From Bdellovibrionales bacterium GWA2_49_15 (lineage in GTDB: Bacteria > Bdellovibrionota > Bacteriovoracia > Bacteriovoracales > Bacteriovoracaceae): a stretch of DNA of 64,000 nucleotides. A program made the position numbers and the translations under genes. The DNA is taken from positions 660,982-724,981 of the forward strand of contig MEPP01000001.1 of assembly GCA_001769855.1 (NCBI GenBank), given 5' to 3'. The notes below the pieces were generated by a model that did not search any database, was not told the DNA's origin, and saw nothing but the letters and a program-made list of their open reading frames with translations. This document shows positions 9,889 through 50,702 of the stretch, in pieces (within the stretch, counting starts at the first letter, position 1; every line of letters begins with the position of its first letter).

Positions 9889-9890
9889 AA

Positions 9891-10316: not shown

Positions 10317-10320
10317 TTTC

Positions 10321-11356: not shown

Positions 11357-11530
11357 AATCGTCTTCCTCCGTTGACGTGGCATTGTTAGAGAAAAAAATT
11401 TAAACTGTGTCTAACTAATTGTCGAGCGTCACATCAATGACAGATATAGCCCAGACGCGTGACGGAAGTCAGGCCTTGGCCTATCCTAGGTCAATAGACA
11501 AACCTTAGTCGCCCGACAAAATCGCTCGGA

Positions 11531-13036: not shown

Positions 13037-13045
13037 AAATCCCCC

Positions 13046-14743: not shown

Positions 14744-14987
14744 ATTTTCAAATAATTTAGGGCAAATCTTCTTCACCGAAAAATTCCCACCGAAGCAACC
14801 AATATTATAAAGCTTCTGTTCTTGAAAAATGATGGGCATTGATTGCCTGAAAAGAAGGCCTCCGGTCATTCCTTCGACAATGGCGAAATCTTGATCAGTA
14901 TCCCTAAGCTAACTACCTGATAACAGGAGAATTATTTGGCATCAAACATGCTTGATATTATCGCTTAGGGGTTCTTGGGAGGGGTTT

Positions 14988-27062: not shown

Positions 27063-28070
27063 TTAAGGAATAAGTGTTTCTAACTCAAAGCTGGAACTAA
27101 AAAGTCGGGCGATGACCTGCTGATCTTTCAGGCGGGTAAGCTTCGCTGTTCCCTTGGCATATTTGGTATTGTGGACCTGAGAAACTTTACGCGAGGGATG
27201 ATCATAGTCCAAGGTGGCCCAGGCGTGTCCCTCGCCATTAATCATGACATCTAATTCGTACTCTCGGCCCTTAAAAATCACATGATAGGTTTTCAAGGTG
27301 AGATCTTCCACCCGCGGCCGCCAGCAGGTCAGGACGCGGTTGAAGTCATACCACCTACCCTTATAAAAAAGAGAGCCGGCCGAGAGGTAGGGAGATTTCC
27401 ACGGGCCCAGCAAAATCTTGGCGGAAAAACCGTCAAAGAAGGTATCAGGAAGAGGCCTCCCTTCCTCACTAAACTCATTGCAGTTGGCGTAAGCGTACTG
27501 ATAGGCGTGTTCCTTACCCCAGTTGTGCCCGTTCATGCCCTGAAACTGCCCCTGGCAAGTTAAAAATGGCGCGGTAATCGTGCCGTCATACTTCATGAAA
27601 CAGTCGGCGGTTAGAATTTTTTTCTTGGGAAAAAATCCGCGGTAGAACCAATCCTTATCGAAGTGATAATAAACTATCTCCGAAAAATCAACCTTCAAAT
27701 CCCAGGAAATTTGTCCCGGCATCATGCCGCACAGGTGTGAATCCGAGAGCTCAAAAAATCCGCCTTTTTCAAATTCCACCCGCAGCTGACGCCACGATTT
27801 CTTACTCAAGACCTCACTTTGATATTGCTCAAAAGTTAGCATCTTGCTTTGCTGGTACACACAGCTTTGCTTGGTCTTGTCATTAAACAGAATTAAAATA
27901 TTATCGACTCGCACGCCCGGATCATCACAAAAACCTATCAGGTTATGCTTGAGCCAAAATGAAAAAGGGGAATTCTGCAAGTTTCCACGAAAGTAAAAGG
28001 ACTCATAAATTCGCCGGGTCTTATCTGACAGTCCCAGCTCGATACGGGTTGGAAGTACGGATAAGGTCAT
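27063..28070 (-). CDS. CrtC/AttH-like lipocalin-fold protein
   Basis: The 335-residue protein resembles the hydroxyneurosporene synthase (CrtC)/AttH-like double-lipocalin group through its beta-rich layout and the central motif GMNGHNWGKEHAYQYAYANC, which matches the family's HNWG region. Members include carotenoid hydratases and proteins of unknown reaction. No carotenoid genes are nearby, so a carotenoid role is not supported. It has no signal peptide. Its ATG overlaps the stop of the upstream oxidase (ATGA), showing tight coupling. A hydrophobic ligand that the two oxidases also act on is an inference. Confidence 0.6.
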   Translation of the reverse strand: MTLSVLPTRIELGLSDKTRRIYESFYFRGNLQNSPFSFWLKHNLIGFCDDPGVRVDNILILFNDKTKQSCVYQQSKMLTFEQYQSEVLSKKSWRQLRVEFEKGGFFELSDSHLCGMMPGQISWDLKVDFSEIVYYHFDKDWFYRGFFPKKKILTADCFMKYDGTITAPFLTCQGQFQGMNGHNWGKEHAYQYAYANCNEFSEEGRPLPDTFFDGFSAKILLGPWKSPYLSAGSLFYKGRWYDFNRVLTCWRPRVEDLTLKTYHVIFKGREYELDVMINGEGHAWATLDYDHPSRKVSQVHNTKYAKGTAKLTRLKDQQVIARLFSSSFELETLIP

Positions 28071-30457: not shown

Positions 30458-32103
30458 TATTTTTGTGCTCCAACAATTTCGGTGAACTTGATAACCGGCG
30501 GTTTGAAATTCGGCCCCAGAGCAGGGTTAATTGGAAAATGTGCCGCAAATCGTTCCGTTAAAGCGGTAATAGTCAGGCTGGGATTAACCGCCAAGTTCGA
30601 GGGCACCACTGAAGCGTCACTGACATACAGCCCCTTATAACCAAACAGCTCATGATTGCTATCCACGGCACCTTCTTCGGCATTTTTGCCGATCAGAGCA
30701 CCGCCTAAAATATGCGCGGTCGCGGGGGTTTGAAAAAAGACCTCACTGAAAATGTTCTGGGCCTCGCCCTTGATAATATCAGCCAACTTGAGCGCGGCAT
30801 CCTGGGCCACAGGAAGATAGCTGGGAATCTCGCCTTCCTGTCTCTGTCCTTTCAATCCCAGTCGAAAAAAATTCAAAACCGGGCGCCCCAAAGTTAATTT
30901 GATCTTACTCTCCACGGACTGCATGACGAGCAGGATAATCGTGCTCTTGGCCCAGTCACGGGTAAACAGCAGGCGAATATAATTTAAAGGTCGGGTCAGA
31001 AAACGCCACAACATTTTCAGCGGACGAACAAGACAATTGCCATCGCCGGCCAGAGGAACCGCCATGAAACGCAGCAAATCCGATCCTGCAGGATAGCGCA
31101 CACCTTCAATCTTTGTGTAAGGGTCGGGATGAATGGCGGCCCCAATCGCAACGCCGGTGGAGAAGTCTTGGGATTGATCGAAAGTCGTCGCCCCAAGGAG
31201 ACTCTCGCCGTTTGACCGCACATCTTCACCAATCTTTTTGGAGAGCTTAGGTAAGGTCTGGTAAATATCGCGGTTCTTCAACAGAAGTTTCACGGTGCCC
31301 AGCGCTCCGGCGGCCAGCACCACTTTTTTTCCCTTGAAGCTCGTCCCGGCACTACCACAGTAAGAGCGTGAGGCAACCGTGGAGATCAAGTAGCTGCCAT
31401 CGGCCTGGGGCGTGATCTTTTCCACGCGAAGTCCGGGGAATATCTTCGCGCCCCATTTTTGCGCGAAGTAGAGATAATTTTTGTCTAAGGTATTTTTGGC
31501 GCCGTTGGGGCAACCGATCATGCAGCTCCCACAAAAATGGCACCCGGTTCGAGTTGGCCCATCACCGTTAAAGTATGGATCGGGCACCTCCACTTCCGGT
31601 TTCCCGAAAAAGATGCCGACTTCAGTGGCATGAAAGGTTTCTGCCGCGCTCATCTTTTCGCCCAAAGTTTTCATCGCCAAATCATTGGGGGCCAGATAGG
31701 GATTAGTTGCCACCCCTAACATTTTTTTTCCAATCTCAAAATGGGGCCAGAGCTCCTTCACCCAGTCTACGGCCTTCGGCCAGGTCGGACCCCGAAAAAT
31801 ATTCTCTTCCGGTCGCATCAACGTATTGGCATAAACCAAACTTCCGCCGCCCACTCCCACCCCGTGCATGATCATTAATTTTCTTAGTAATGAAATCCGT
31901 TGAATACCGAAGCAGCGGATAATGGGTGCCCACAAATATTTGGTCACACTCCAGTTGGATTTGGGAAATTCAGTATTTTTCCAGGCCATGCCCTCTTCGA
32001 CAATAGCGACCTTGTATCCTTTCTGAGACAGGCGCATGGCAGAGACCGCCCCACCAAAACCACTACCCACGACGATCACGTCGTATTCTTGTTCTTGCGC
32101 CAT
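30457..32103 (-). CDS. ChoD-like GMC-family FAD oxidoreductase
   Basis: The 548-residue protein resembles cholesterol-oxidase-type (ChoD) GMC enzymes. FAD binding is at VVGSGFGGAVSAMRLSQKGY (11-30), with GVGVGGGSLVYANTL (81-95) next. The C-terminal segment ends DASVVPSNLAVNPSLTITAL, the GMC signature. A CxxCxxCxxxCP motif (C188, C191, C194, C198) sits after the FAD domain and could hold an iron-sulfur cluster; the equivalent Cys-rich stretch is typical of this subgroup. Start ATG 32103 follows AAGGTGGA. It is the first gene of the operon. Whether sterol is the substrate cannot be told. Confidence 0.87.
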   Translation of the reverse strand: MAQEQEYDVIVVGSGFGGAVSAMRLSQKGYKVAIVEEGMAWKNTEFPKSNWSVTKYLWAPIIRCFGIQRISLLRKLMIMHGVGVGGGSLVYANTLMRPEENIFRGPTWPKAVDWVKELWPHFEIGKKMLGVATNPYLAPNDLAMKTLGEKMSAAETFHATEVGIFFGKPEVEVPDPYFNGDGPTRTGCHFCGSCMIGCPNGAKNTLDKNYLYFAQKWGAKIFPGLRVEKITPQADGSYLISTVASRSYCGSAGTSFKGKKVVLAAGALGTVKLLLKNRDIYQTLPKLSKKIGEDVRSNGESLLGATTFDQSQDFSTGVAIGAAIHPDPYTKIEGVRYPAGSDLLRFMAVPLAGDGNCLVRPLKMLWRFLTRPLNYIRLLFTRDWAKSTIILLVMQSVESKIKLTLGRPVLNFFRLGLKGQRQEGEIPSYLPVAQDAALKLADIIKGEAQNIFSEVFFQTPATAHILGGALIGKNAEEGAVDSNHELFGYKGLYVSDASVVPSNLAVNPSLTITALTERFAAHFPINPALGPNFKPPVIKFTEIVGAQK

Positions 32104-32309
32104 AAGAATCCACCTTGATAAATTTATGGGCAATTATCCCATGTCATAGACATTTTTGAAACAAACAACACGCCTCCTCATCGCATGGCGCTAAAAAATA
32201 AATTGCCGATTATCATCCTTGTCAACCTGTCCGGAAAACCACTATAAACCCGCTCAACACACTTATGACTGTTTTTATCAATTCATACAAAAAAAAGAGG
32301 AGATCACAC

Positions 32310-35468: not shown

Positions 35469-38400
35469 TTATAGCGGCGCATAACATCGGTAGGCACCTG
35501 CAGACTGATCTGCCTTTATGTAGAACACTGCATCAAAAGGTACTTCCACTCCATCTCCACCCACCATCTTATCGAGGGTGTCGCAGGACGTGTTGGTACA
35601 AATCTTCCGATACAAAAGTGGTGTCGCCGGTGGCGGCCCCTTTGGCACATACTGACTGAGATTCAGCGTACTAAATCCATAAGGCGTAAAAATCGGCGCA
35701 ATCCCCGTGGCGGCATCGCTCAACCAATGTGGCGTGGCCGGCGCGACATAGTTCGAGTAAGTTGAAAAATTGGTTTGGTCCGGATCGGATTTGATAAAGT
35801 TCCACACGGTAGTGTTGATCAGGGCCTTGGTCTTGTACACGGTACCACCGTTATTGAGGGTATATTTCTGGGCGGCGCAGGCCGAAGTTGCGGCGGCCTT
35901 AAAGCCAAAGCCCGGAATGAGGCCCTTGTCGATCAGCGCGCCATTGGCCCCGATCGTATTGGTAAAAATAGTATTCGCCGGGGGAACGACCGCCGTCAAT
36001 GTCCCCAAGACCGTGGAGCGCGAAGTATAAACCTTTGCTCCTTTTTGGCGTCGGGCCGCCACTCTGTAGTAGTAGTACTTGCCCGCCACTAAGCCATTAT
36101 GCGTGAAGGTGTGAGTGGTCGGCCCCACATCCGTGTAATTTGAAGTAATGGGATAGATATTATTCAAAGTTGATGCCGCCGTGGCCCAGAAAATTCGATA
36201 GCCGATCTTATTTCCCCAAACGGCATTGGCGCCGGTAAAGGTCGGCCAGTTGAAGGTGATACTTCCCGAACTTGAGGCCTGCACGTTGCTGTAGTTTGTT
36301 CCTCCCGATAAGGTGGAGAAGTCGGGTTCGATAAAACCGGAGAGGTGAAAGTGCATGACATCAAAGCTCGACCAGCGATTGTTATAGAAAGTTAAGTGCA
36401 TCATGTTGTTTCCGGGGAGAAGGTCGGTACCGGTGAAAGTTTCATCACTCCAATACTCAAAGAAAAGTTTGCAGGCATTCGGAACCGAGGTGGCATTATT
36501 GAAACCCTTCTGGTCAGCAGGAACACCGCCGTCAAACTCGTCATCCCCGTAGAAACAACCACGGGTGGCGAAGACGTGAATCTGCCCATTGGGCCCACCG
36601 TTCCACATTTCAATTTTATTATCCGTTGGCCCAGAACAGGTGGGTGGGTTCGAGCAGGCAGGAGGGTTGGCCAGTTGTTTTAAAAAGCTTGCCTTGAGTA
36701 TGCTGGAATTGGCAATCGTGACCCCATTCGCCGGTGCGGTCATGGGATAAGCTCCGATGGTCGGATAGGTCGTTTGCTTAATATGAGGATTGGCCGCCAA
36801 AGCCCCATAGGACACTGAATAACTCGACCAGGTATAACCTGACCCAGTTCCCGAGCCAGTCTCCAAAGTTTGGAATTTTGAAAGCCCGGAGGCCGTCAAG
36901 TTGGCCGGATCGGAGGCGGTGAACGTCACCCTAAAGGCCTTGTTAATAAACTGATTGGCCTGGAGGTCGTAGTTTAAATGCACATAGGCCGTGTTCGTAG
37001 CAGGCGTAGAAGCGCTGGCGGTAAATTTAATGTCAAAGGTGCAGGTATCGGTCGGATTCATGATCTTATTGCAAGTATTACTGAGGAGCTCATAGCCACT
37101 GACCGCATCGGCGCTGGCCGTCGCCCCCATTTGGGTCTTGATAAAAACATTCAGCCTAAAGGGGAAGGCGGTGTTATTTTTTAAGGTATAAGTTTTCTTG
37201 GCGTAGACCGCACTACCCTTAACGGCAAAATAGGTATCGTTGAAGGCGGGATCAAAGTTATGAGTCTTTAGAGGAATATTTCTCTCGGCCCCGGTGAAAA
37301 ATTCCGAGGTGCCGGGATTGTTGAACTGGACAAACCAATCCTTGCTTTTCACGTCATCATCGGCATCGGTGTTGCTGAAGCCGCCTGTATCTGCCGTCTC
37401 GAAGGCCTCGGCCATAATCCGATAATGGGCCACGATAGGGTTGGCCGTGGACACCTTGTGATAGCCATCGTCGTAGGTGACGTCCATAAGGGTGCTAAAA
37501 ATTTCCGGATTCCCGGCCAAAACAGTGTTCGGGGTAAAATTAAAGGTGAAGGCGACACTCGCTCCCACATTGATATTGAGAGGCAAGGCCGGCAAACCAC
37601 CGGCCACGGTCAAACCAGCGGGAAGGCCGGGGGAAAAAGTGATGCTTCGGATGGTCACAGTCTGCACTCCCGTATTCGCGAGAGTGAAAGAGAAGAGATG
37701 GGTCTCACCCGTGGCGGGAAATGTTCCCCCATGAAAGGTGTAGTCATCACTGGCACTGACCAACGCCGCAACGTGGGTTTTTGACAGAATATGCCTGGAC
37801 ACAGGTTCGGTGGCACCGACGGTATCAAACCATAATGGAGCAACATCATAACCTGCCTGGGTCCCTGTGCCGGCAGGAGGGTCAGACAGTGTTGGATAAT
37901 TCATGGCCGGCCGATAGGCAATGGCGCTATCGATGGGTGTAAGCCCGCTGACGGGTGTGAGTTTGCCCACACCCACAAGACCGCAGTTCAGCATGTAATC
38001 CCGGGGTATGGCCTTTTTAAAACCCAAAGCATTGTCATAACCGGGAGCAGCCAGAGGGCCTGAACATGGACCCACGGGACACTGGTTGGAGTCACCGTCA
38101 TAGTATTGAAAGGTAACGGTACTGGCCGTTGTCTGGGTTTTCCATTCCCAAAGGTCGGCGGTATTATTTCGGGCCGAGATGTTATGACGAGTTTCATTAA
38201 GGGCGGGAGTATTAAAATCTGCATCCACCATTCTCTCCAAAGGGTCCGCCGTGGCCAAGACGGTGAGCGCGCAGGTTTCGAATTGCGCCAGAACCGACCC
38301 GCCCCCAGGCGCACTGATAAAATCGACGCAATCATGATCGTACGGGGCCCCGGGAGTGGGAATGATGTTGTAGGGATATCCGCTGGGACCTCCATTTCGA

Positions 38401-40478
38401 TAGGTGCCGATAGGGTAAGGTCCGTTAAAGTAATATAGGTTTTTAATCGCATCAATATTGATGTAGGGAATGGAGCCGGTACCGACATTTTTCAGCACCA
38501 CCCGATGGGTCTTCGTCTGCCACGGATACATTGTCCCCATCACCCCGAAATTGGGATCAGTTTCCTTAAACACTAGAAAGCCTTTCATGACCAGGGTACC
38601 GGTATGCTTCGACTCAAGCGCTCGATCCGGATGTGGAGTTCCATCATCCTCATAGGTAGCAGAATCCCGATAGGTGATATGGAAACGCTTAAAACTTAAT
38701 GCAGGGTCAGGTTTGCCGGTGCCCCCGTCAATCGTAATCTCGTCAAAGTAGAGACGATTGTCCAAAGCTTCGGTATAATGAATAGGAGAAATATAACCGG
38801 AGATCGTGCAAAACTCGGCCGGTTCTACGTTGTTACACCCCGTGATCATGGATTCATAATAGGTATCGTAAGCAGAGTCGCTTTGCGAGTGAATATTTCG
38901 AGGGGTTGCATCGATCTGCTGCGGTCCACTGCCGGCCGACTGCCCGTCAAAGACGGAAAGTACGGTGACGCGACTATTGCCCGCATTATAGAGCGTAATA
39001 GACACTGACGAGCGATAGGCCGAATCCGTGATCAGCGCCAAACGACCAAGATCAAACCAGGCGGAAGTTTCGTCCACGGACTCATTGGTTTGTGCAATAT
39101 TGTTGACCTTGAAATCCTGAATGATCAACTTTCCTGCCGCCTTTGAGTTGGCATTAAAGGTGAAAAGTTTTGTGGTAATGATCGTCTCTTGATTTTTCCA
39201 ACGGGAGTCGTACTTAAACCACAGCTCGGTTCCGGTAAAATCCCGGTCGGTGAGGTATTGTAGCGACGGCCAGAAGGTGACTCGGTAAATACATGACTCC
39301 CCCAGCGTCTCTCCACGAATACCCGGGGTGGCGACGTCCATGCAGGCCGACAGGTCTTCCACTCGAAAAGGCAGGGTTGCCAAATCAACGGGGGTGGCAG
39401 GGTCTGCCCCATCGGTGCAGTCGAGGAAGGGACCGGAACCGGCGGGTGTTGTACAGACACCCATGAGGGTGCCATCGGATTTTTTAAAGATAAGTTCTTT
39501 GACGACACCTTCCTGATATCCCTTATTAATAATGGCGATGTTCTTGCTCTCATGATTGCCCACTATAATATCAGGAGTGAACTCATGCACCGCCTGGTTG
39601 GTCTCAAAGACCCCTTGGATTTTGAGGGATTTGTAGGAGAAGAAGGCATTCAAATTCCCCGTGGCGCTTTTGCCATCCTTGATATAACTGGCGGTAAAGG
39701 TGGCCGAGTAATCTTTTGGCGGGTCGGTCACCAGAATATTGAGGGGAACATAGGAGACCGTGGCCTCGCAGCTCATGAGGGACTTGATGACGGTGGGACA
39801 GTTGTGCTCCATAAGAACAAAAGATGATGGCAGGTCAGCACTCAGAACGGAGAGATCGACATTTCGAGCAGAGAGACCACCGCGGTTTTCAATTCGCATG
39901 ACCTCGGTTCGCACGATGGGTTCGGTTTGTTCCAAAACCCCGTAGTTGTAAAAGGACACTTCACTGGGAAATACCAATGATGCAGGCTCGCCTATCAACA
40001 CGGTCATGGTGTCACTGTATTCGGCAGTCTTGATAAAATTTTTATATTTAAAAAGAATCTTCTGCTTGAATATCCCAGAGCGGGCGGGATTCATAGTGAC
40101 CTTTATTGAGCACGTCGCCCCAGACGCCAATTTGGCGGTCACGCAAGTTCCCCCGGTTCCTGGAAAGCCGGGTTGCCCGGTATCCTCACCGGCCGCGAAG
40201 ACCATGCCCATATCCGAGGTGTCGTCATCAAACAGAGTCAGATCAAGATTGGTAATCTCAAACTTGGAGTTATTTTTTACCGTCATGGTAATGGTTCGAG
40301 GATCGGAGCCGGTCAAAATCTCACCAAGGTCTTTGCCCCCGACGATGGTGAATGTCACAGGATCAAAGATACCATCGGTTTTTACATCGACGGCATCTTC
40401 CCCAGTTTTAGGGACGCAGGAAACTAAAAGCCCAATAAGCCCTGCTAGAAATATGGGCAAAAGAAATGTAGCTCGCAT
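35469..40478 (-). CDS. Giant lipoprotein with repeated Ig-like (choice-of-anchor D/ASH-type) and FN3 domains
   Basis: The 1669-residue protein begins with a lipoprotein signal peptide and Cys21 (GLLVSC). It is built of repeated beta-sandwich modules: many segments follow the choice-of-anchor-D/ASPM-SPD-2-Hydin pattern, in which a GxxP/N-rich strand, a CSI/CTI/CAL strand and an F-turn recur (for example SGATCSIKVTMNPARSG and NPTDTCTFDIKF). A fibronectin-type III unit is recognisable near residues 1420-1520 (WATAASTLNNIYPI to YYYRVAARR). The C-terminus is a distinct 150-residue part with several Cys. GAGG lies 5 bases before the ATG. It starts 31 bases after the 1981-residue gene and is likely co-transcribed. 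It is probably a surface adhesin or scaffold; the target is unknown. Confidence 0.8.
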   Translation of the reverse strand: MRATFLLPIFLAGLIGLLVSCVPKTGEDAVDVKTDGIFDPVTFTIVGGKDLGEILTGSDPRTITMTVKNNSKFEITNLDLTLFDDDTSDMGMVFAAGEDTGQPGFPGTGGTCVTAKLASGATCSIKVTMNPARSGIFKQKILFKYKNFIKTAEYSDTMTVLIGEPASLVFPSEVSFYNYGVLEQTEPIVRTEVMRIENRGGLSARNVDLSVLSADLPSSFVLMEHNCPTVIKSLMSCEATVSYVPLNILVTDPPKDYSATFTASYIKDGKSATGNLNAFFSYKSLKIQGVFETNQAVHEFTPDIIVGNHESKNIAIINKGYQEGVVKELIFKKSDGTLMGVCTTPAGSGPFLDCTDGADPATPVDLATLPFRVEDLSACMDVATPGIRGETLGESCIYRVTFWPSLQYLTDRDFTGTELWFKYDSRWKNQETIITTKLFTFNANSKAAGKLIIQDFKVNNIAQTNESVDETSAWFDLGRLALITDSAYRSSVSITLYNAGNSRVTVLSVFDGQSAGSGPQQIDATPRNIHSQSDSAYDTYYESMITGCNNVEPAEFCTISGYISPIHYTEALDNRLYFDEITIDGGTGKPDPALSFKRFHITYRDSATYEDDGTPHPDRALESKHTGTLVMKGFLVFKETDPNFGVMGTMYPWQTKTHRVVLKNVGTGSIPYINIDAIKNLYYFNGPYPIGTYRNGGPSGYPYNIIPTPGAPYDHDCVDFISAPGGGSVLAQFETCALTVLATADPLERMVDADFNTPALNETRHNISARNNTADLWEWKTQTTASTVTFQYYDGDSNQCPVGPCSGPLAAPGYDNALGFKKAIPRDYMLNCGLVGVGKLTPVSGLTPIDSAIAYRPAMNYPTLSDPPAGTGTQAGYDVAPLWFDTVGATEPVSRHILSKTHVAALVSASDDYTFHGGTFPATGETHLFSFTLANTGVQTVTIRSITFSPGLPAGLTVAGGLPALPLNINVGASVAFTFNFTPNTVLAGNPEIFSTLMDVTYDDGYHKVSTANPIVAHYRIMAEAFETADTGGFSNTDADDDVKSKDWFVQFNNPGTSEFFTGAERNIPLKTHNFDPAFNDTYFAVKGSAVYAKKTYTLKNNTAFPFRLNVFIKTQMGATASADAVSGYELLSNTCNKIMNPTDTCTFDIKFTASASTPATNTAYVHLNYDLQANQFINKAFRVTFTASDPANLTASGLSKFQTLETGSGTGSGYTWSSYSVSYGALAANPHIKQTTYPTIGAYPMTAPANGVTIANSSILKASFLKQLANPPACSNPPTCSGPTDNKIEMWNGGPNGQIHVFATRGCFYGDDEFDGGVPADQKGFNNATSVPNACKLFFEYWSDETFTGTDLLPGNNMMHLTFYNNRWSSFDVMHFHLSGFIEPDFSTLSGGTNYSNVQASSSGSITFNWPTFTGANAVWGNKIGYRIFWATAASTLNNIYPITSNYTDVGPTTHTFTHNGLVAGKYYYYRVAARRQKGAKVYTSRSTVLGTLTAVVPPANTIFTNTIGANGALIDKGLIPGFGFKAAATSACAAQKYTLNNGGTVYKTKALINTTVWNFIKSDPDQTNFSTYSNYVAPATPHWLSDAATGIAPIFTPYGFSTLNLSQYVPKGPPPATPLLYRKICTNTSCDTLDKMVGGDGVEVPFDAVFYIKADQSAGAYRCYAPL

Positions 40479-40509
40479 ACGTACCTCGTATTTCTTTTAT
40501 CCGTAACTG

Positions 40510-43500
40510 CTAGTCCGCAGTATTGATCTTGATGACACATCGGCTGCCCCTGCCCCAATGATTTTCTTGGTTGTAGGGACTGTCCCCTCTCATATAGGCG
40601 TAGTATCGACCGGCATCGGAGGTGGTCACATCTCCGCCTACGTTAAAGTACATTGGGTTGCTGCGACTGATGACCCACCATGCCCAGGACGTGCTAACCA
40701 CGTCGGTCGAGCCGTTGGCGTATTTTATATTCCAGATGTCGTCATCAGGAAGAGGGCCGCCGGCCACGACACTGTCAATATATCTAAAAGGAGTTTTCCA
40801 GGCATTGGGCGAAACGTGCCAGGCCGAGAAGTTGAGGTCTCGCAAGCCATCATTGTGGATATTGCCATTATTGGTTGGGAAGTTCTGAATCGTCGGGTTG
40901 CCAAAGGTCGGTCCAGATCCATGGGCCGCGGCCAAGATCGTGGTGGTGAAGTCCTTGTTGTCAGGCGAATCAACGCAAGGAGCGGGGTATCCCGGACCTT
41001 CCATGCAGGCCGTCGTCATCCCAATCGCCGGGTTGAAAAAGGCTCCCATACTGCTTGAGCCAAGGGCCTTTATTTGAAAGACTTCGCTATAGGCAATTGG
41101 TGGGCCGACGTTCGCCTGTCCCCAGTCCAGAAAATATCCATCGCCACCGCGGTCATCGAGAACCAGTTCCTGTCCGAAGGTTCTATGGGCCCCCCAGCCG
41201 GTTCCAGTTCCTGACTCTCCCAAGGCCGGGCCGACGTCACCATGCCATTCAATAACCTGATCGTTGTATCCAGACCAGGTGTTGAAATCGAAGATGGACG
41301 CCATATTGGTGCCTGAGCGAAAGTTCATTCCGGTTCCCTGATCTCGCTCCCCGCCCATCTGCACGGTGGAACATTGTCCGGTATTTTGCTGGGACTGAAC
41401 CCAGGCAACCAGGCCGCCGGGGCCGGTCTTATAAGCATCTAAGTTACTGCCCCACCAGGACACGGTGCGGTCGCCGCCTTGATGGACTTCAGTGCCGGCA
41501 CTTGGAAGTGGAGGAACGGCGGGGGTGACGGTCCCCGATCCTAACCCACCCACGGCCATTCGAATCGAACTCGGCTGGTCGTCGGCCACGGGGCCGAGGT
41601 ACATCAGCTCACCACTAAAGTCACAGAAGACCTGTTCGGCCACGACCTCCATCATATTTCCCACCAAGTCCTGAACACCGAACTTGGAAACGCAGCGGGA
41701 AGAATTTGCGTTGACCCCACTGGCATCATTGGCGCTTGAGCCACTCCAATAGTAGGGATCGGTCTCTCCCCAAGTGGAAGGAAAGCGGGGGGAAAATTTT
41801 AAATTCCACCAGATATCTTGGCCGAGGTTGTTTGCAAGTCGGGCCTGGGTATTGCAACCTGACACATTTCCTTTGGTCAGAGTGGAGGCCAGCAGCTTAG
41901 GTTGCACGTGATCATAATTACCCGTTTCAATGGTGGTAATCATAGTTTCATCATAAATATTGACGTCCGCAAAGCCGGCCGTGGCGCTGGAGTCAATATC
42001 CGGCCAGGCGGCCACAACGTTAAATTCTTTTTTGGTCATGATCCGCTTGCTGGCCGGGGCATCAATCTGATAGAAAACGCCACTTCCACTTCCGGCCGCC
42101 TGATCGAAGGCACCCAGCTCAACTTTATAGAGTCCACAGAGATCGTACGCGGCCTTCTGGGATAGATACCCTAGAGGCGGTAATTTCGCATTATTGCTCG
42201 AGAGAATTTTCCCGATGGGCGTGGTGGCGGGATTGAAACGGGTGGTGGTTGGCCAGACCGTTGGCTTGGTATCATTGGTAGCATAAAAGCCCGGCATGTT
42301 TAAAACCTCATTGACCGTCTTATTGTAAAGGGTCACGGCTCCGGTTGGGGCCGGGGCCGTCAGCTTATCATTAAAAAGCATATTCATGGCAAACCAACGG
42401 GCCGTCCAGTCGCCGTCCTGCCGATTGACATTGGGATGGTTGGCAGGAGTATTGACGAAAGGCAGGTTGATAAAGCACTGGCCACTGGAAATACTATTGC
42501 CGCCCCAGTCCGTAATATATGATCCGGGTCCGGCGGAGGAAGGATACTTATTTTGGGGATAGCCACCCTTGTTTCGTCTATAATACACGGCTGCCGGCTC
42601 TGACTGAACTAGGTGTTTCTGAAAGGGATATCCGTCCCAGGAATTGCCACCGGCACCTTCCCACATCTCACCCCAATAGTTAGGATAATCCGGTGCTCCT
42701 ACGCGGCCGTAAAAAGTTCCGTAGACATAGTCCGCCGTTTGACAGTTTTCCGAGGCATCATTGGGGATGACGTTGATCGCTCCGGGAAAGCCATAGGTCG
42801 CGGGTTGGACAACCGTATAATCGGCACATTCCTGTCCGGTCATGGTCGTCGCCGCCGTACCAAAACAATCTCCCTGATGAACTCGCTGATAGCTGGTGTC
42901 CGTATTGGAACTTCCCGAACCTGTGTGCCCATTCATAGGCTCATACTCAAAGTCATCGGTTCCCACACAACCTTGGAAAGGTCGGCCGGTGGTACTCCCC
43001 ATCCAGGCCACCGTGCGCCCTTGGAAATTGGCCAAGCCATTTCCGTAATCCCCTGGGTAATCACTTTCAGCGATGGGCGTCGCTCGGGGATCTCCACGAG
43101 TGAAATTGCAGCCCAGCTCAAAACGGTCAACGAGAAGGTCGCCGCCTAAGTCATAGATAGGTTTGGCATCGCCCGGAAGTCCGGTGTAAACCGGCCATGG
43201 GAAGCTGGTACTGCTGGCACCCACTCCGTTAAAATCGCAGGAGTAATATCTTCCGGGTGTGGTATTAATCGGCCGATCCATCTCACGACAGATGGTTCGA
43301 TTGGCCATCATGCGATGAACCAGCGCCATATTGGGCGGAGGCAAAGTCACCTTGATGATATTGCTTGAGTCGGTCAAGGGCAGTGGTGTGTTATTGAACA
43401 CGGGAACAATCTTGTACCAGTAGATTCGCGCCCGTTCTATCTCACCATTATTATCCGTGTACTTCACCGAATAATCGGTAAAGGTGACAATCTTATCGGT

Positions 43501-46455
43501 ATCGGCACTGACGTTGTTGCGCTTCATGGTCAATCGACTCTGCGCTCGAATCAGTCCGCCGTTGGAAACTTTCTGGTAGGCGAAATCCTTGTGGGTCAAT
43601 TCTGTCCAGGTCACCTTGTTGTTATCAGAGCGATAGACCTTATAGCCAAAAACGCGCGCCCCCTTAGTGGCGGGAAAGGCGAAAGGAAAATTAGCATTCT
43701 GACCGGCATCGGGCGCCTCATAAGAACTGATCATGTCATCCATATAGAGATTGGGTGTGCTATAAAATTTCACGTCCTTCCAAGACAGTCGCACCATCCC
43801 GGTGTTGGAATATTGATATTTTGGATTGGCCACATCTCCGTCTTTGGTCCCATACACCCCATTAAAAGGTGTGCCGCCTCGCGAGAGATAAAAACCATCC
43901 GCCGGATCTTCGTTTATCATAATGCCGGAGCCGGTGCCGCTGCCCTCCAGCACCACTTCCACGGGCACGCTGGAGTCATCCAAGGTTTCCAAAATCATGG
44001 TGCGCGCGCCGGTAATAGGATCAGGCGGGGTGAGGCCATCCACCTTGGGGCCCACGGCAAAAACTTCGGTCCATTCCTGAAATTCCACGGTGGGAAGAGC
44101 GATCAAACAGTCACCGGTGTTTAAGTTGGCTTCCGAGTAGTAGCGATCCAGTCCAACCTGGAGATACGCCAACACCCCGGTAAAATAGCGCTCGCCGGGA
44201 ATGAGCGGAGGTTTGCCAACAGTCGTGGGATCAACGGTATAAGCGGTCAGCGTCTTGTCGATCGCTTCTTTGGTCCAATAGATCGGGCCGCCGGGTGCCG
44301 GCAAGCTCATGGTTTTGGCTTCAGCGAATTGAAAAGGAGTCCCTGTGTTATTGCGTTTCCAGAAGGCCTGAAAGTTATTGTACATCCCCCCCGTGGGCAG
44401 AGACCAGGTCATATTGATCGTTCGCCCGGCCACGCTACAGGTGGGAACCTTACCCGGGAACTGGGCCAAGGTGGGTGTCTTGATCTCGGGAGTGATGCAT
44501 TTTATCAAGGCCGAACCCATATTCTCGATATCTTGAAAGTTGTAATTAGGAGGGCCGACAGAATAGTGGGTATTATCCCCATCGACCTTAGGCACTAAAG
44601 AAAAGCAGTACTCCTTGCCAACCGATGGCTCGATGCCGTCAATGTTGACCTCCTCGAAGATTTCAAAGGCCTCCTGGGTCGTGGGCGAAGGAGTCGAGCG
44701 ATAAACCCCATTACAGTTGTCAGCACTCTTGATGGAAAAATTCACCTCGACCCCGGCCAGATGACTGAAGTCCAAGGTGTCATTGGTACTCACTAAACGG
44801 GAGGGAACAGTGGCCTTGGAGGTGTAACTGAAAACCTCATAATCAGCATCTCCAACCGCTCCAATCACCACCGCACCAGAAGTGGGAAATGCGTCGTAGT
44901 CCCCATCATCAATGGCCAAAGAGCTAGCGCCAGCAGTCGCCGCGCCGGCCCCAACTTGAGTCTTGGCATAGACCAATTTTTTCGGGCTCGCATCCGTAGG
45001 CGTGGCGTAGCAATAGAGTCCCAGATCGTCGAGATAACCGGAGGCGATAACCGGGGAGTTGAAGACGGCGTGAATACGCCTGGTGGTGGTCTCAGCTCGC
45101 GGGTGATCAATGTGATCAATGCCGTCAAAGGGCGCGACCTTTGGAAAGGTGGTGGTTTTGGTGACAGGATCACTGACCTGTCGATTGGCCACATCGCAAA
45201 CGGCATTTCCGCAGGCCACCACCTTGATTTGAAAATGGCGATAGCTGGGCAGGTTTGTTAAACGAAAGTAACTGGCATCGGCATCAACCCGATCGTATTT
45301 ATTCAGACCATTTAAGCGATCAATCTGTCCCCCGGCCTCTGAAAAATAGTCCACCTCATCCACGGGCAGCACGGTGGCGGGATCTTCCACCGGGTCACCC
45401 AGGACCTTCTCTTTCCCCATCTCCTTAAAGTAGACGCGGTAGTGATCAAAGTCCCCGGTGGCCGGTTTCCAGGTCACATCAATATTGGTGAGGGCCGCCT
45501 TGCCGTCAGGATTGATCGCCTTCACGAGCGAGGTCTCAAAGTTAAACATGCCCGTGGGCAGGCCGGTGACGATGGACAAGAACTTATGATTCTGCTCGCG
45601 CTTATAGTTGGAATCACCGTTCAACCCGCCGAACATAATATAACCCTTGTGGTAGGCGCGAACTTGGAAAAAATACTTTTTACCGGAAGCAAGGCCTGTG
45701 ATGGTTCGGGAGCGCTCGGTGGCCAGCAGGGGGCTCTCGGGAATGGGATTGGGAACCAGGTTCACCACTCGATCATTGCCGGTATAACTGGCATTATTTA
45801 AATTATTGGCCCCACCGGTATCACTGATGAAGGTAACTTCGTAACCGACAGGATCGGCGGTCTTCGGGTTAAAGGCCGAACCGGTGGTGGTCGCTCCCAC
45901 CCATTCAACGATAACCGAACTTTGTCCCGCCACACCGGCGGGAGTGCGCACAGAGGCAATACCGGCAAAGTCGGCGGTGATGTTGGCAAAGGTGGTGGCG
46001 CTCAGAGTGTCCCCTGAATCACTGGAAGACTTGGTCTCATTGTTGGTGGCCGAAACGGCAAAGCTATAGGTGGTATTCACCTGGAGTCCCGTCACCGTAT
46101 ACATCAGCTTCCCCGAAGGGTTGGGCGTCATGGAGTTACCGGCGATAAAGATGGGGGCCTCAGAGCCGTTGACATAAATCTCGTAGGTAAGATCCTCTGG
46201 CTTGCCTTTGGCGGGATAGAAATAAACTTCCACCTTATCGTGGGCAATGGGCTCGGCGGAGGCCAGGCCGGAAAAAGGCAGCTTGACCGTCTTGGTGGTT
46301 GCCGTCTTGGTTTTTGAGAGCTTGGTATCTTCAATGGTTCCGACGCACCCAACCCCCACCAGCAGGACCACAAGAAGGGTCGCGCGCAACCACATGTGGG
46401 TGCACGCCCTCATAGACCTTGATAAAGATTGAGTCTTACAAATAATCATACCCAT
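40510..46455 (-). CDS. Giant FN3-repeat lipoprotein with FGE/C-type-lectin-like C-terminal half
   Basis: A 1981-residue lipoprotein with Cys37 (LLVGVGC) followed by VGTIEDTK, the same start as the neighbouring 636-residue paralogue. Residues about 40-1090 hold several fibronectin-III-like units (for example GLQVNTTYSFAVSATNN and GLASGKKYFFQVRAY). From about 1100 the pattern changes to the FGE-sulfatase/C-type-lectin-like fold: LLVDRFELGCN, KRIMTKKEFNVVAAW, RCVSKFGVQDLVGNMMEVVAE and closing NHWGRGSRCVIK. The typical FGE core GLxDxxGNxxE is seen as FGVQDLVGNMMEV. In prokaryotes this fold makes formylglycine or, more often in such large surface proteins, binds ligands. The exact ATG is uncertain (46455, 46413 or 46395). 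No catalytic Cys pair is claimed. Confidence 0.8.
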   Translation of the reverse strand: MGMIICKTQSLSRSMRACTHMWLRATLLVVLLVGVGCVGTIEDTKLSKTKTATTKTVKLPFSGLASAEPIAHDKVEVYFYPAKGKPEDLTYEIYVNGSEAPIFIAGNSMTPNPSGKLMYTVTGLQVNTTYSFAVSATNNETKSSSDSGDTLSATTFANITADFAGIASVRTPAGVAGQSSVIVEWVGATTTGSAFNPKTADPVGYEVTFISDTGGANNLNNASYTGNDRVVNLVPNPIPESPLLATERSRTITGLASGKKYFFQVRAYHKGYIMFGGLNGDSNYKREQNHKFLSIVTGLPTGMFNFETSLVKAINPDGKAALTNIDVTWKPATGDFDHYRVYFKEMGKEKVLGDPVEDPATVLPVDEVDYFSEAGGQIDRLNGLNKYDRVDADASYFRLTNLPSYRHFQIKVVACGNAVCDVANRQVSDPVTKTTTFPKVAPFDGIDHIDHPRAETTTRRIHAVFNSPVIASGYLDDLGLYCYATPTDASPKKLVYAKTQVGAGAATAGASSLAIDDGDYDAFPTSGAVVIGAVGDADYEVFSYTSKATVPSRLVSTNDTLDFSHLAGVEVNFSIKSADNCNGVYRSTPSPTTQEAFEIFEEVNIDGIEPSVGKEYCFSLVPKVDGDNTHYSVGPPNYNFQDIENMGSALIKCITPEIKTPTLAQFPGKVPTCSVAGRTINMTWSLPTGGMYNNFQAFWKRNNTGTPFQFAEAKTMSLPAPGGPIYWTKEAIDKTLTAYTVDPTTVGKPPLIPGERYFTGVLAYLQVGLDRYYSEANLNTGDCLIALPTVEFQEWTEVFAVGPKVDGLTPPDPITGARTMILETLDDSSVPVEVVLEGSGTGSGIMINEDPADGFYLSRGGTPFNGVYGTKDGDVANPKYQYSNTGMVRLSWKDVKFYSTPNLYMDDMISSYEAPDAGQNANFPFAFPATKGARVFGYKVYRSDNNKVTWTELTHKDFAYQKVSNGGLIRAQSRLTMKRNNVSADTDKIVTFTDYSVKYTDNNGEIERARIYWYKIVPVFNNTPLPLTDSSNIIKVTLPPPNMALVHRMMANRTICREMDRPINTTPGRYYSCDFNGVGASSTSFPWPVYTGLPGDAKPIYDLGGDLLVDRFELGCNFTRGDPRATPIAESDYPGDYGNGLANFQGRTVAWMGSTTGRPFQGCVGTDDFEYEPMNGHTGSGSSNTDTSYQRVHQGDCFGTAATTMTGQECADYTVVQPATYGFPGAINVIPNDASENCQTADYVYGTFYGRVGAPDYPNYWGEMWEGAGGNSWDGYPFQKHLVQSEPAAVYYRRNKGGYPQNKYPSSAGPGSYITDWGGNSISSGQCFINLPFVNTPANHPNVNRQDGDWTARWFAMNMLFNDKLTAPAPTGAVTLYNKTVNEVLNMPGFYATNDTKPTVWPTTTRFNPATTPIGKILSSNNAKLPPLGYLSQKAAYDLCGLYKVELGAFDQAAGSGSGVFYQIDAPASKRIMTKKEFNVVAAWPDIDSSATAGFADVNIYDETMITTIETGNYDHVQPKLLASTLTKGNVSGCNTQARLANNLGQDIWWNLKFSPRFPSTWGETDPYYWSGSSANDASGVNANSSRCVSKFGVQDLVGNMMEVVAEQVFCDFSGELMYLGPVADDQPSSIRMAVGGLGSGTVTPAVPPLPSAGTEVHQGGDRTVSWWGSNLDAYKTGPGGLVAWVQSQQNTGQCSTVQMGGERDQGTGMNFRSGTNMASIFDFNTWSGYNDQVIEWHGDVGPALGESGTGTGWGAHRTFGQELVLDDRGGDGYFLDWGQANVGPPIAYSEVFQIKALGSSSMGAFFNPAIGMTTACMEGPGYPAPCVDSPDNKDFTTTILAAAHGSGPTFGNPTIQNFPTNNGNIHNDGLRDLNFSAWHVSPNAWKTPFRYIDSVVAGGPLPDDDIWNIKYANGSTDVVSTSWAWWVISRSNPMYFNVGGDVTTSDAGRYYAYMRGDSPYNQENHWGRGSRCVIKINTAD

Positions 46456-46670
46456 TTGTCTTATCGTATCCTTCTTGTCAGGGCCTTATGGCCGATTTGA
46501 CTAATTATATGATTAAAGGGCGCTCCCCACTCCGCCCCGACAGCTCAAACCGCAGCTATCCCATGAGATTCATTGGTTTTAATAAAAAGTCTCCGATTAT
46601 CTTAAGAATTTTGGGAGGTCAGCCGAGGGCCTTTTCAAGGCAAAATCTGACAAGTTTTGTGGTCACTTTT

Positions 46671-48581
46671 TTAGTTAGGGGTGCAGGACCAGGTATTGCT
46701 GTTAAATTCACTTCTTTTGATGGTTCCATTGATATTCACATAGGTAATAACGCCAACCCGATAGGTCTGTCCTGTCGTCAAACCTTCCACCGTATATTCA
46801 ACCGTATTTTCGTTCACGAGCCGACGAATATAGGGGGCCGGTGGCGGATCGGAAGCGGTGGCATCACCAAAGTTGAAGGTCCCTTCGGGCCGAACGAAAA
46901 TTTCAAAGTGGGAGTAGATTCCCCCCTGGGGTTTTTCCCAGCTCACCAGCACACCTCCTGGTCCGGCGCCGGGTAGACATCCCGTGGCACCAGAAAATTG
47001 TAAGGCGGTAGGAGGATTGACCTTGGGGACCAGGCAGTTGGGAACGGCATTCTCCCGATGCTCCACCAGCACGCCATTTTCCCAGGTGTAGGGGAAGGCC
47101 TGAAAACAATAGGGCACATCACTGAAAGGAAAGGCGTTGGTGATGACCAATTCCGTAGCACTTTGATAATTGAAACTTAAAATATTGAGCGGACTGATGT
47201 TGGGGACGCCCCCCGGATGGTTTAGGGGCACAATGGTGGTCCCGTTATAATTCACATATTCCACAATGACTCCGTCCATAACGCCGGAGGCGAGATCGGG
47301 AGGTTGAACCTGAAGATAAAGCTCATCCAACTTATTAAACTCTCGGGCGGGTTCGATGGCCATAACCCCAGAGTAGAGCGCCACCTGAGGGGTAGTCTCA
47401 ATCACCTCAACCGAGGACAGAACCCGGGTGGAAGGCGTACAGGTAGTACTCTGACAGACCGCCACCACCACGTAATACTGGGTGTTGGGAATCATGTCGA
47501 TCAAGATGGCGCTGGTCCCGGTGTAATCCACCTGCTTACAAAAATAATTTATATTATTGGTTTCCCGGCCATCACACACGCCATCGGGGGTGCCCGAGAG
47601 GTAGGCCAGAATCGCAGGGTTGGCGGAATAGTAAACGCGGTAGCTGTCAAAGGCCCCCGCCGCCTCTTCCCATTGGGCCGAGATGGAGGTCAACCCTTCC
47701 GTTCCAGGCATCAGGGCCACGGTTACACCTTCGGTATTAAAATCCAGATTGTTGATGCCTCCCTTCAGCGTCTTAATCTCCATGTACTTTGAATTCACCT
47801 CTTTTTTATAAGTGACATCACTGCCGTAAACGGTATAGCCGTAATGAATGGCCCGCACTGAAACGTAGTATAGGGTATCGGCGGCAAGCCCCCCCACCAC
47901 GGAATTAATCTCGGCCGGATTCACGTAGACGACTTTTCGAAAGGGCTCTGAGAAGGCGGTGTTGTGCATATCACTGGGAGACAGAACGTCTCCGTTAATC
48001 AGCGTGATGATATATTTATTCGGATCAATATCCTTGGGCACAAAGGCGGACCCCTGCCTCTCGGCTTCGGCCCATTCCACTTTTACAGAGTTGATGCCCG
48101 CCAAACCCGGCATGGTTTTCACATTCTGAATGCCCAAAAAATTAGCGGTGATATTGGCAAAGGTGGTGGCAGATTTCTGTCCTTCGGCCTGAGAGTAGCC
48201 TCCCGTCTTCACATTTTTAACCTGCACCTCAAAGTTATAGGCGGCGTTGGTTTTGAGTCCCAAGACGGTATACACTAGAAGGCCCAGGTAATTGGGGCGC
48301 AGGTACAGTCCGGGAACAGTGAGCGGAGCCGAAAGGCCGTCATAGTTGACGAGATAAACAAGGTCGGCGGCGTCCCCCGGGGCCGGGAAAAATTTGACAT
48401 CGACCTTGTCATGGGCCACGGGTTCGGCAGAAAAGATCCCGTCAAAACTTATGCTGGGGATGGCGACCGGAATGGTTTCAGACTTTTTAACTTTGGTGTC
48501 CTCAATGGTCCCAACACAGGCGGAAAGGGTGAGAATCCCCGCTAGCCAGACTAAGTGTATGTTGTTCCACGACCACTGCAT
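46671..48581 (-). CDS. FN3-repeat lipoprotein, shorter paralogue of the 1981-residue protein
   Basis: The 636-residue protein starts MQWSWNNIHLVWLAGIL with a lipoprotein Cys (LTLSAC) and is then collinear with the first part of its neighbour. Matching landmarks are CVGTIEDTK, AEPVAHDKVDV versus AEPIAHDKVEV, SATTFANITANFLGI versus SATTFANITADFAGI, and the terminal GGVLVSWEKPQGGIYSHFE versus NMTWSLPTGGMYNNFQ. It contains about five FN3-like units and stops where the neighbour continues into more repeats and the FGE-like half. TGGAGG lies 12 bases before ATG 48581. It is the first gene of the three-lipoprotein run. Confidence 0.8.
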   Translation of the reverse strand: MQWSWNNIHLVWLAGILTLSACVGTIEDTKVKKSETIPVAIPSISFDGIFSAEPVAHDKVDVKFFPAPGDAADLVYLVNYDGLSAPLTVPGLYLRPNYLGLLVYTVLGLKTNAAYNFEVQVKNVKTGGYSQAEGQKSATTFANITANFLGIQNVKTMPGLAGINSVKVEWAEAERQGSAFVPKDIDPNKYIITLINGDVLSPSDMHNTAFSEPFRKVVYVNPAEINSVVGGLAADTLYYVSVRAIHYGYTVYGSDVTYKKEVNSKYMEIKTLKGGINNLDFNTEGVTVALMPGTEGLTSISAQWEEAAGAFDSYRVYYSANPAILAYLSGTPDGVCDGRETNNINYFCKQVDYTGTSAILIDMIPNTQYYVVVAVCQSTTCTPSTRVLSSVEVIETTPQVALYSGVMAIEPAREFNKLDELYLQVQPPDLASGVMDGVIVEYVNYNGTTIVPLNHPGGVPNISPLNILSFNYQSATELVITNAFPFSDVPYCFQAFPYTWENGVLVEHRENAVPNCLVPKVNPPTALQFSGATGCLPGAGPGGVLVSWEKPQGGIYSHFEIFVRPEGTFNFGDATASDPPPAPYIRRLVNENTVEYTVEGLTTGQTYRVGVITYVNINGTIKRSEFNSNTWSCTPN

Positions 48582-48780: not shown

Positions 48781-49905
48781 ATGTCCAAGCAAACGGCGAC
48801 AATCTTTTTTCTGCTTTCACTTTGCCTGATGCCCCTCACCTGGGCGGCCCAGGAAGCAACCGCCATGCCCTTGAATTCAAAGGACGGCATCATCTTGCTC
48901 GATCATGGCGCGAAGCTGGTTGGCAAGTTCAAGGTAGTGCCCCTTGGAGATTTTTTTACCGTGACCCCGCAGAAGTTCTCGGCCCGTCTTTTTACCCGGG
49001 AACACCAAAATCCCCCCACTCAGGATTTCTATGTCAGCACCCTTGAGTTCAATGAGGATGAAAAACGTCCTGAGCGCACCAGCCTGAGAATCATGAACGC
49101 TTTCGCCCACGGACTCTCCCTCATCCTGACCCGAGATCAGCGGATCATCATTCAGAATCTTTATCAGGGGGAGCTGGGGCCTGGCACCATCTTATATCTG
49201 GGAAAAAATGAATACCGAAAATATGTGGGAGAAATTAAAAATTTCACCTTTGATGGTCTGGGCACATTAGAGTTTGCCAATGGTCTGACCCTACAGGGAC
49301 GTTTTGGACAGGGAACTTTGAATGGGCCTTATTTGGATCGTGGCAATCAGAACATCCTCCAGTACGCCAGAGGCAAACTGGTGAGTAGCACTCCCATGCA
49401 AAAGCAGACCTGCCATGATCCCTACCTGGGTGACTATCATCTCAATCAGGGCTCATGCAAGGATGGCGAGCTGCAGGCCCACTCGGCAAACTTCAAGAAA
49501 AATCTTCTCGTCTATCATGGCAACTTCAGGAGCGGCAAACTCTGGCGCGGGGAAATCTCTCCCATGGCCCTCGACACCGAGGGGACCTTTGGCAAATTTG
49601 AAAATGGTATCCCCTCCGGAGTGATGCGAATCCAGAAGAAAAATGGCATGACCTTGGGCGCGCTGATTGAAGGTAAGCTGAGCGGCCAAATTACCAGCTA
49701 TGATTTCACCACCGGTGAGCGCTTCATAGGACAGTATGAGCATGGAAAAAGAAACGGCCCTTTTCGCCTGCTTAACTATAACAACGAAATCGTGCAAAAA
49801 GGTCAGTACAAAAATGATGTTTTGGATGGCACCATTTTTACCTATGATCAGAAGGTTCGCCTGAAATCCACCGAAAATTACCAGCGCGGAAAAAAAACTT
49901 TTTAA
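48781..49905 (+). CDS. Exported MORN-repeat protein
   Basis: The 374-residue protein has a signal peptide (about residues 1-22, ending TWA) and several MORN-type repeats: YVGEIKNFTFDGLGTLEFAN and LTLQGRFGQGTLNGPYL in the middle, FIGQYEHGKRNGPFRLLNYN and KGQYKNDVLDGTIFTYD near the end. MORN repeats form extended beta-hairpin sheets that bind lipids or proteins. No clear ribosome-binding site precedes ATG 48781. The gene is divergent from the giant-lipoprotein run and overlaps the TIGR02147 regulator's 3' end by 4 bases. Confidence 0.8.
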   Translation: MSKQTATIFFLLSLCLMPLTWAAQEATAMPLNSKDGIILLDHGAKLVGKFKVVPLGDFFTVTPQKFSARLFTREHQNPPTQDFYVSTLEFNEDEKRPERTSLRIMNAFAHGLSLILTRDQRIIIQNLYQGELGPGTILYLGKNEYRKYVGEIKNFTFDGLGTLEFANGLTLQGRFGQGTLNGPYLDRGNQNILQYARGKLVSSTPMQKQTCHDPYLGDYHLNQGSCKDGELQAHSANFKKNLLVYHGNFRSGKLWRGEISPMALDTEGTFGKFENGIPSGVMRIQKKNGMTLGALIEGKLSGQITSYDFTTGERFIGQYEHGKRNGPFRLLNYNNEIVQKGQYKNDVLDGTIFTYDQKVRLKSTENYQRGKKTF

Positions 49906-50702
49906 TCTTCTCTTTTGGAAATGGGAAAAAGATAGGCCATAAACTGGTATACCTGATTGCCCTGCCCTTCGCGCATGAAGCTCGAAAGTTTTTTCTGAAA
50001 TTCCGTGATCAATTTTCGAACCTGAGGAAGCTTTCTCACGTCGAAGGCGATGGTGGAGGAAACCATCATGCTTTCCTCGGCCTTGAAAGAATCGAATCGA
50101 TCAATGAGCAGGGTCAAGTTGCTCCGGTGGGCCTCGCGAAAAACCTCATCCTTTTCCTTAATCCCGCGGGTGTGTATCGGCCCACAGCTTTTGCGATAAC
50201 GCCCGTCGGGTAACTTTTCCACCAACCTCTTCTGGCACAAATCCTCTAAACAGCTCCGGGTGATTTCTTCATCCAGAAACAAACGCTGCGAGATTTTGGC
50301 CACCGCCGCTCCCCCGTCCGACTCGCACACACCAAGAAAGGCAAAAATGGCAAAGTACTCCCAATGAATTAAGATGCGCGAATCAATGTCATCATCCAGG
50401 CGCAACGAGGTGTAGCGCTCACCCGCTTCCTCCTCGATGGCCGCCAGGCGGGTATGCTCGACCTCACAAGATTGCCTGAATTTTATCAGAGTTTCTCCTG
50501 ACAGTCCCATCTTGCAGGCAAAGGCATGGGCGCGCGACAACGGCAGCGCCCGGCGTCCGTTCAGGATGGCGCTCAGGGTGGATGAATCTATTTCCAGGTA
50601 GCGGGCGAAAGAGCGCAGGGAAAAACGCGGATTTAACTGCTGACGACGGGCCAGCTCCTGCTCCAGAACTAGCTGATAATACTTCCTCTCACTTTCAACC
50701 AT
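49902..50702 (-). CDS. TIGR02147-family transcriptional regulator (DUF4423)
   Basis: The 266-residue protein opens YYQLVLEQELARRQQLNPRF and then SLRSFARYLEIDSSTLSAIL, the N-terminal helix-turn-helix-like region typical of TIGR02147, a family expanded in Bdellovibrionota and Fibrobacteres. The C-terminal two thirds have the DUF4423 layout, with REAHRSNLTLLIDRF and a TIAFDVRKLPQVRKLITEFQ segment. It probably binds DNA through the N-terminal part; the effector is unknown. It is divergent from the exported gene at 50829 and convergent with the MORN gene; 127 bases separate the two starts, so it could control either neighbour or itself. Confidence 0.88.
   Translation of the reverse strand: MVESERKYYQLVLEQELARRQQLNPRFSLRSFARYLEIDSSTLSAILNGRRALPLSRAHAFACKMGLSGETLIKFRQSCEVEHTRLAAIEEEAGERYTSLRLDDDIDSRILIHWEYFAIFAFLGVCESDGGAAVAKISQRLFLDEEITRSCLEDLCQKRLVEKLPDGRYRKSCGPIHTRGIKEKDEVFREAHRSNLTLLIDRFDSFKAEESMMVSSTIAFDVRKLPQVRKLITEFQKKLSSFMREGQGNQVYQFMAYLFPISKRED

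Follow-up and report, generated by a model that had tools for sequence, protein, structure and literature searches.

Giant FN3 and FGE-like lipoprotein genes linked to a MotAB and FliF-FliG-like motor locus suggest an envelope machine in Bdellovibrionota

The window, i.e., the whole stretch of 64,000 nucleotides analysed here (Bdellovibrionales bacterium GWA2_49_15, family Bacteriovoracaceae, GCA_001769855.1, contig MEPP01000001.1, positions 660,982 to 724,981), carries three consecutive minus-strand genes for giant lipoproteins, henceforth called the cassette, which in many relatives are adjoined by genes for a MotA/MotB stator and lie near one for a FliF-FliG-like protein. The first gene (46671..48581) encodes a short FN3 lipoprotein of 636 amino acids (aa) from the ATG at 48581, or of 643 aa from a TTG at 48602, and its orthologues adjoin the long gene in relatives. 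The second (40510..46455) encodes the long protein of 1981 aa, consisting of an FN3-rich half (residues 40-1060, 43276..46338) and a C-terminal region resembling formylglycine-generating enzyme (FGE) with large insertions (residues 1061-1981, 40513..43275), and the third (35469..40478) encodes a protein of 1669 aa. The gap between the short and long genes measures 215 bp (46456..46670) and that between the long and third genes just 31 bp; in many relatives the gaps amount to a few bases or are replaced by overlaps, as in an operon. All three open reading frames are uninterrupted at these coordinates and, as the first-pass annotation of this DNA had described, each starts with a lipobox, the cysteines of which stand in LSAC, GVGC, and LVSC. 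The residue at position +2 was valine in all three window lipoproteins and never aspartate in relatives with a recognised lipobox. Under the E. coli sorting rule, aspartate at +2 leads to retention in the inner membrane, so that this pattern fits an outer-membrane location, which is predicted only.

FN3 domains exceeded the Pfam cut-off in the short (64 bits) and long (60 bits) proteins, as annotated earlier. The third protein, which synteny also supports as a member of the cassette, has putative choice-of-anchor-D/ASH-like repeats and one weak FN3 domain; its choice-of-anchor D match (33 bits) lies below the curated Pfam cut-off of 45 bits, and relatives at loci L109 and L054 reach PF22544 (HYDIN/ASH) at 124-130 bits. 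In several relatives, the counterpart of the third protein ends with an FGE-like domain. Sequence comparison found no relation of the third protein to the short or the long one.

The short protein is homologous to the first ~780 residues of the long one (blastp; 34.8% identity, E=1e-59), with residues 32-443 aligned to 40-476 and, after a long insertion separating the two blocks, 513-640 aligned to 643-783; at the DNA level, similarity is almost nil. In a tree including shorts and longs from 13 and 11 loci, respectively, all shorts and all longs were placed on opposite sides of one branch (support 100/100), which points to a single old duplication and not to a recent truncation. Judged from this tree, the pair is one ancient duplication predating the spread of these genera. 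The origin by duplication proposed in the first-pass annotation thus stands, and the tree excludes that the long gene was recently duplicated or truncated. In one relative, a metagenome-assembled genome (G001), two overlapping frames (L049:8764-9612 and 9491-14914) stand in place of an intact long gene, owing to an assembly error or a real frameshift.

Regarding the C-terminal region of the long protein, one of the FGE-type landmarks noted earlier, FGVQDLVGNMMEV, was located at residues 1592-1604, within the FGE core motif CVSKFGVQDLVGNMMEVVAE (residues 1588-1607, 41635..41694, minus strand; hhalign to FGE proteins of the same genome and motif search), whereas WGRGSRC, previously taken as its close, is not the exact end and is followed by VIKINTAD. 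Neither the long protein nor its C-terminus alone matched FGE in Pfam, and the link is seen at the level of family profiles only. Twelve of 24 related domains matched PF03781 at E<=1 (best E=1.6e-5), the sole recurring family, and compact counterparts of ~310 aa matched FGE-sulfatase just under the cut-off. In hhalign comparisons with four FGE-type proteins encoded by the same genome, the domain profile reached a probability of 94.6 (E=7e-8, 133 columns); long domains alone reached 72.9, and six control profiles did not exceed 0.5. A profile search of the 24 diverse domains against the PDB yielded 17 matches at E<=1, nearly all of FGE fold by name, including SUMF1/FGE, SUMF2, PvdO, PorK/GldK, and Treponema variable protein 1, with a best E of 0.0015 and coverage limited to the core motif; the same search with eight long C-termini gave a chance match only. 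Taken together with the alignment of eight relatives, the family profiles indicate that the long C-terminus is, by sequence, a member of the FGE/SUMF1 superfamily with large insertions.

The catalytic GG[SG]..C motif was found in 0 of the 24 domains by a motif search, which is not structure-based, and catalytic FGE activity was hence judged unlikely, the domain being probably non-enzymatic. The alignment of the eight long proteins further revealed 12 invariant cysteine columns other than the catalytic pair. The window genome encodes a further FGE-like giant lipoprotein of 1929 aa, a paralogue, on another contig (L050:5426-11215, G000:C11).

Genomes are given working numbers hereafter, G000 being the genome of the window. 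The order short-long-third was kept in 12 genomes (G000, G001, G012, G014, G015, G016, G028, G031, G079, G099, G107, and G116) and, across a contig break, in G034, so that the shared gene order on which the first-pass annotation had staked its idea of a co-expressed apparatus is found in relatives. The idea of an apparatus is strengthened further by the tie of the gene run to a motor locus, which the earlier annotation had missed. In many relatives, motA and motB adjoin the cassette, their products matching MotA_ExbB (PF01618) and MotB_plug (PF13677) plus OmpA above the Pfam cut-offs. The motor locus additionally comprises a protein with the working label c7 (an N-terminal domain, a Pro/Lys-rich linker, and a C-terminal barrel-like part), a 200-aa protein, a membrane protein carrying a PAS domain in the window genome, a barrel-like protein of ~210 aa, a PEGA/TPR protein of ~203 aa, and a FliF-FliG-like fusion of ~700 aa. 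Cassette and motor were found contiguous in G079, located with eight fusion proteins as queries, and in G012, G014, G028, G099, G107, and G116.

In the window genome, the cassette lies on contig C1 and the motor half on contig C25 (locus L095, G000:C25:235000-254900, motor genes at about 244-254 kb). Within L095, the minus strand carries the fusion (9070-11136), the PEGA/TPR protein (11140), the small barrel-like protein (11849), the PAS protein (12495), a 260-aa protein (14460), and c7 (15311), and the plus strand carries motA (17285) and motB (18098).

Four regions were recognised in the fusion: a signal or membrane segment, an alpha/beta portion in the periplasm, a membrane helix, and an all-helical portion in the cytoplasm. 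A profile built from 22 fusion sequences matched only FliG in the PDB (3ajc, E=1.7e-4; 5tdy) and, weakly, FliF, and these matches were collinear along the chain in the order FliF-FliG. An AlphaFold model of the fusion (pLDDT 72) was compared with the PDB using Foldseek; the top seven targets were FliG or C-ring chains (best E=2.8e-5, probability 1.00, ~330 columns) and the eighth was FliF-YlxF. TM-scores were low (~0.3 by target), which a flexible protein of the armadillo-like kind could explain, and the claim is therefore held to a FliF-FliG-like fusion, as which the ~700-aa protein is identified by profile and model, and not extended to a solved fold.

In the MotA tree, the cassette MotAs were placed apart from the flagellar MotAs (PomA-type) that these genomes also encode; two long-branch MotAs (L146 and L151) fell among the cassette MotAs without firm placement. 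The proton-binding aspartate and the MotA proline motifs are kept in the cassette stators, which consequently look functional by sequence. A further MotA, encoded 10 kb away from the fusion at the G017 locus (L105 14860), was tried as a cassette-type protein and dropped, being of the flagellar type. Other flagellar genes (export, axial) were not recognised in the motor loci. Second copies of the motor set (fusion and PEGA, in some motAB) occur at L148 (G012:C2:80000-90000), L111/L112 (G030), and L130-L132 (G116). A 354-aa protein adjoins motB at L055:16113-17177 and L132:14264; because the L055 protein has a PilZ domain, this neighbourhood suggests that the machine may be under c-di-GMP (cyclic di-GMP) control.

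Of the 129 genomes of the family, 46 carry the fusion, 39 the FN3 lipoprotein half, and 36 both (Fisher p=2e-19 by genome and p=2e-7 by genus, values inflated by the kinship of the genomes). Within one genus (g15), four of the genomes listed had both, two the fusion only, and eight neither (p=0.015). Both parts could be placed in 34 genomes, in 24 of which they were on one contig and always within 14 kb; in the other ten, the window genome included, they were on different contigs. Flagellar FliG_C was present in 125 of the 129 genomes, and the four without it (G033, G114, G115, and G116) all belong to genus g32, also lack FlhA, and are apparently flagella-less. MotB occurs in this genus only in G033 and G116, the two genomes with the FN3 cassette, and there within the cassette loci: G116 carries two fusion genes, i.e., two copies of the machine, and G033 carries the cassette with MotAB, each in a genome without FlhA and FliG_C, and neither MotB, fusion, nor cassette was detected in G114 and G115. 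The machine thus persists independently of flagella in one genus, g32.

Beyond the family, the fusion profile matched 83 of 369 genomes of the phylum. In other families, the PEGA, fusion, motA, and motB genes occur together and are often adjoined by giant lipoproteins. The near-complete genomes G167 and G169 encode two 840-aa FN3 plus FGE-like lipoproteins and a 1013-aa lipoprotein upstream of the motor genes, their fusion matching the profile weakly (E 1e-6 to 1e-7). Next to the motor operon of G246 (L185, L173) lies the gene for an anchor-D repeat protein with a length of at least 6333 aa.

The homologies, linkage, co-occurrence, and persistence in a flagella-less genus are results of computation, and the reading of them that we consider probable is that the lipoproteins form the outer-membrane load of a dedicated non-flagellar, ion-driven MotAB/FliFG machine, with surface movement as its likeliest output. 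In such a machine, MotA and MotB, anchored to the peptidoglycan via the OmpA domain of MotB, would turn or push an inner-membrane ring of the fusion, the FliF-like part making the ring and MotAB acting on the FliG-like domain. The PEGA/TPR protein and c7 would relay the force through the wall. It would be received by the FGE-like domain of the long lipoprotein, which may serve as a non-catalytic docking hub at the outer membrane, and the FN3 and anchor-D lipoproteins would be moved in that membrane. The output could be gliding or engagement of the prey surface; to gliding in particular we give slightly less than an even chance. The widest version is offered with similar reserve: a new envelope machine in many Bdellovibrionota, in which a rotary MotAB turning a FliF-FliG-like ring drives giant lipoproteins, would be the gliding motor of these predators, its FGE-like hub reached independently from Bacteroidota.

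Several points weigh against this interpretation. In the window genome itself, at least 110 kb separates the cassette from the motor, and the two are on different contigs. The fusion is present in ten genomes in which no FN3 N-half passed the threshold used (e.g., G002, of the same genus, G017, and G060), and three carry the cassette without the fusion (G033, G023, and G070). Some FGE-like giant lipoproteins (L050 and L057-L061) have no motor in their neighbourhood, and those at L057-L061 are from genomes that lack the fusion. An AlphaFold model of the FGE-like region of the long protein (932 aa, shallow alignment of eight sequences) reached a pLDDT of only 29 and was discarded. Finally, torque, force path, lipoprotein orientation, movement, and gliding are inferred from the genes. 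Since L057-L061 occur without the fusion, there may be a second group of FGE-like lipoproteins, motor-less or differently driven; several of the L057-L061 relatives adjoin a barrel-like protein of ~300 aa.

Closest among the alternatives would be a real motor that serves a secretion or envelope-remodelling device like PorKN/PorLM of the type IX system, with the lipoproteins forming an outer-membrane ring and no gliding involved. PorK, the closest solved analogue and one of the weak PDB matches, is indeed a ring in a secretion system (PMC12421860), and an adhesin comparable to SprB was not identified at the present loci. No constant translocon-like gene was recognised in the locus, however, the recurrent envelope proteins being the small barrel-like proteins and c7, and the FN3/anchor-D proteins resemble long stalks and not ring subunits, so that we regard such a device as unlikely. 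About as unlikely, or marginally more so, is a passive role of the lipoproteins as surface adhesins that bind prey, host, or matrix, in line with the binding proposed in the first-pass annotation, their place near the motor being due to history. Among adhesins, giant lipoproteins of the FN3 and anchor-D kinds are common, and FGE-like giant lipoproteins exist without a motor too, but co-gain and co-loss with the fusion over the 129 genomes and in genus g15, constant proximity to the motor, and co-retention with MotAB in the flagella-less genus would be unexpected for passive neighbours.

Less probable than either is that MotAB and the fusion are a flagellar accessory (an alternative stator and rotor), with the lipoproteins as a flagellar sheath or outer-membrane collar. 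Such a role would suit the flagellar FliG carried by 125 of the 129 family genomes, the exchangeability of stators between rotors, and the sheathed flagellum of Bdellovibrio (PMC13104615). It is contradicted by G116, with its two machines and neither FliG_C nor FlhA, and by the separation of cassette MotAs from PomA-type MotAs, though the two long-branch MotAs stand among them; the loci moreover showed no further recognisable flagellar genes, and a membrane segment and periplasmic domain of its own are present in the fusion.

Returning to the outer-membrane load of a dedicated motor, a functional analogue of Bacteroidota PorK/GldK is the best reading of the lipoproteins by comparison with known systems. 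PorK/GldK is an outer-membrane lipoprotein with a repurposed FGE fold that has insertions, lacks catalytic cysteines, and works with a proton-motive-force motor (PMC12421860, PMC12635249); its FGE fold serves for docking, as the hub of a ring or track that moves, and not for ligand recognition (PMC12421860). The binding of prey, host, or matrix and the ligand specificity of a lectin-like fold that had been proposed earlier are unsupported. The likeness to PorK/GldK/GldJ and PorLM/GldLM lies in predicted outer-membrane lipoproteins with FGE-like domains and insertions, in which no catalytic cysteines were found, and in the weak PDB matches to PorK/GldK. Unlike PorLM/GldLM, the present motor combines a FliF-FliG-like protein with MotA and a MotB that has an OmpA domain, and FN3 stalks bear the FGE domain.

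With the flagellar motor, the associated locus outside the window shares the MotA/MotB families above the Pfam cut-offs and FliG by profile and fold; it differs in that FliF-like and FliG-like parts are combined in one protein, joined to giant outer-membrane lipoproteins, and present in a genome without FlhA and FliG_C. The Agl-Glt system of Myxococcus, which the proposed machine would resemble, couples an ion-driven inner-membrane motor to envelope and outer-membrane parts for gliding (PMC13104615), and AglRS has been placed in a non-flagellar clade of motor proteins (PMC12505986). In contrast, the present locus encodes a rotor-like protein together with MotA and a MotB that has a plug and an OmpA domain, and AglRQS (TolQ/TolR-type) motor proteins are not in it; no search was made for Glt components in the rest of the genome. 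FGE/SUMF1 and Treponema variable protein 1 share the core motif and the superfamily, whereas the long domain is much larger, with insertions, and its family of 24 has no GGSxxC-type motif. None of these named systems combined all tested features, and no description of a FliG/FliF-paralogue machine in Bdellovibrio was found in the literature searched (preprints and most subscription journals being outside its scope), so the machine is apparently undescribed.

Gliding of Bdellovibrio is real and independent of flagella and pili, its machinery being unidentified according to a 2026 review, in which finding the motor, adhesins, and force path is called “a major open challenge” (PMC13104615). The loci described here name a concrete candidate gene set for predator gliding, comprising motor, rotor-like protein, periplasmic links, and outer-membrane load. 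If the proposal is true, a flagellum-type stator and rotor would serve a machine that has no flagellum, and an FGE-type fold that is borne on a lipoprotein and lacks catalytic cysteines would for the second time be tied to an ion-driven motor. In addition, the loci caution against reading every “extra” motAB pair in predatory bacteria as a flagellar stator.

Genes for helix-turn-helix (HTH) regulators were observed near the cassette in three genomes, i.e., at 49902-50702 in the window (DUF4423), at L042 17573 and 18443 (L042 also with DUF4423), and at L049 4589 (G001), making a regulator of the cassette possible. Elsewhere in the window, a GMC oxidoreductase gene beside a second FAD-oxidoreductase-like gene (28067-32133) is apparently unrelated to the cassette, and an AcrB-type pump is encoded at 19251-22430.

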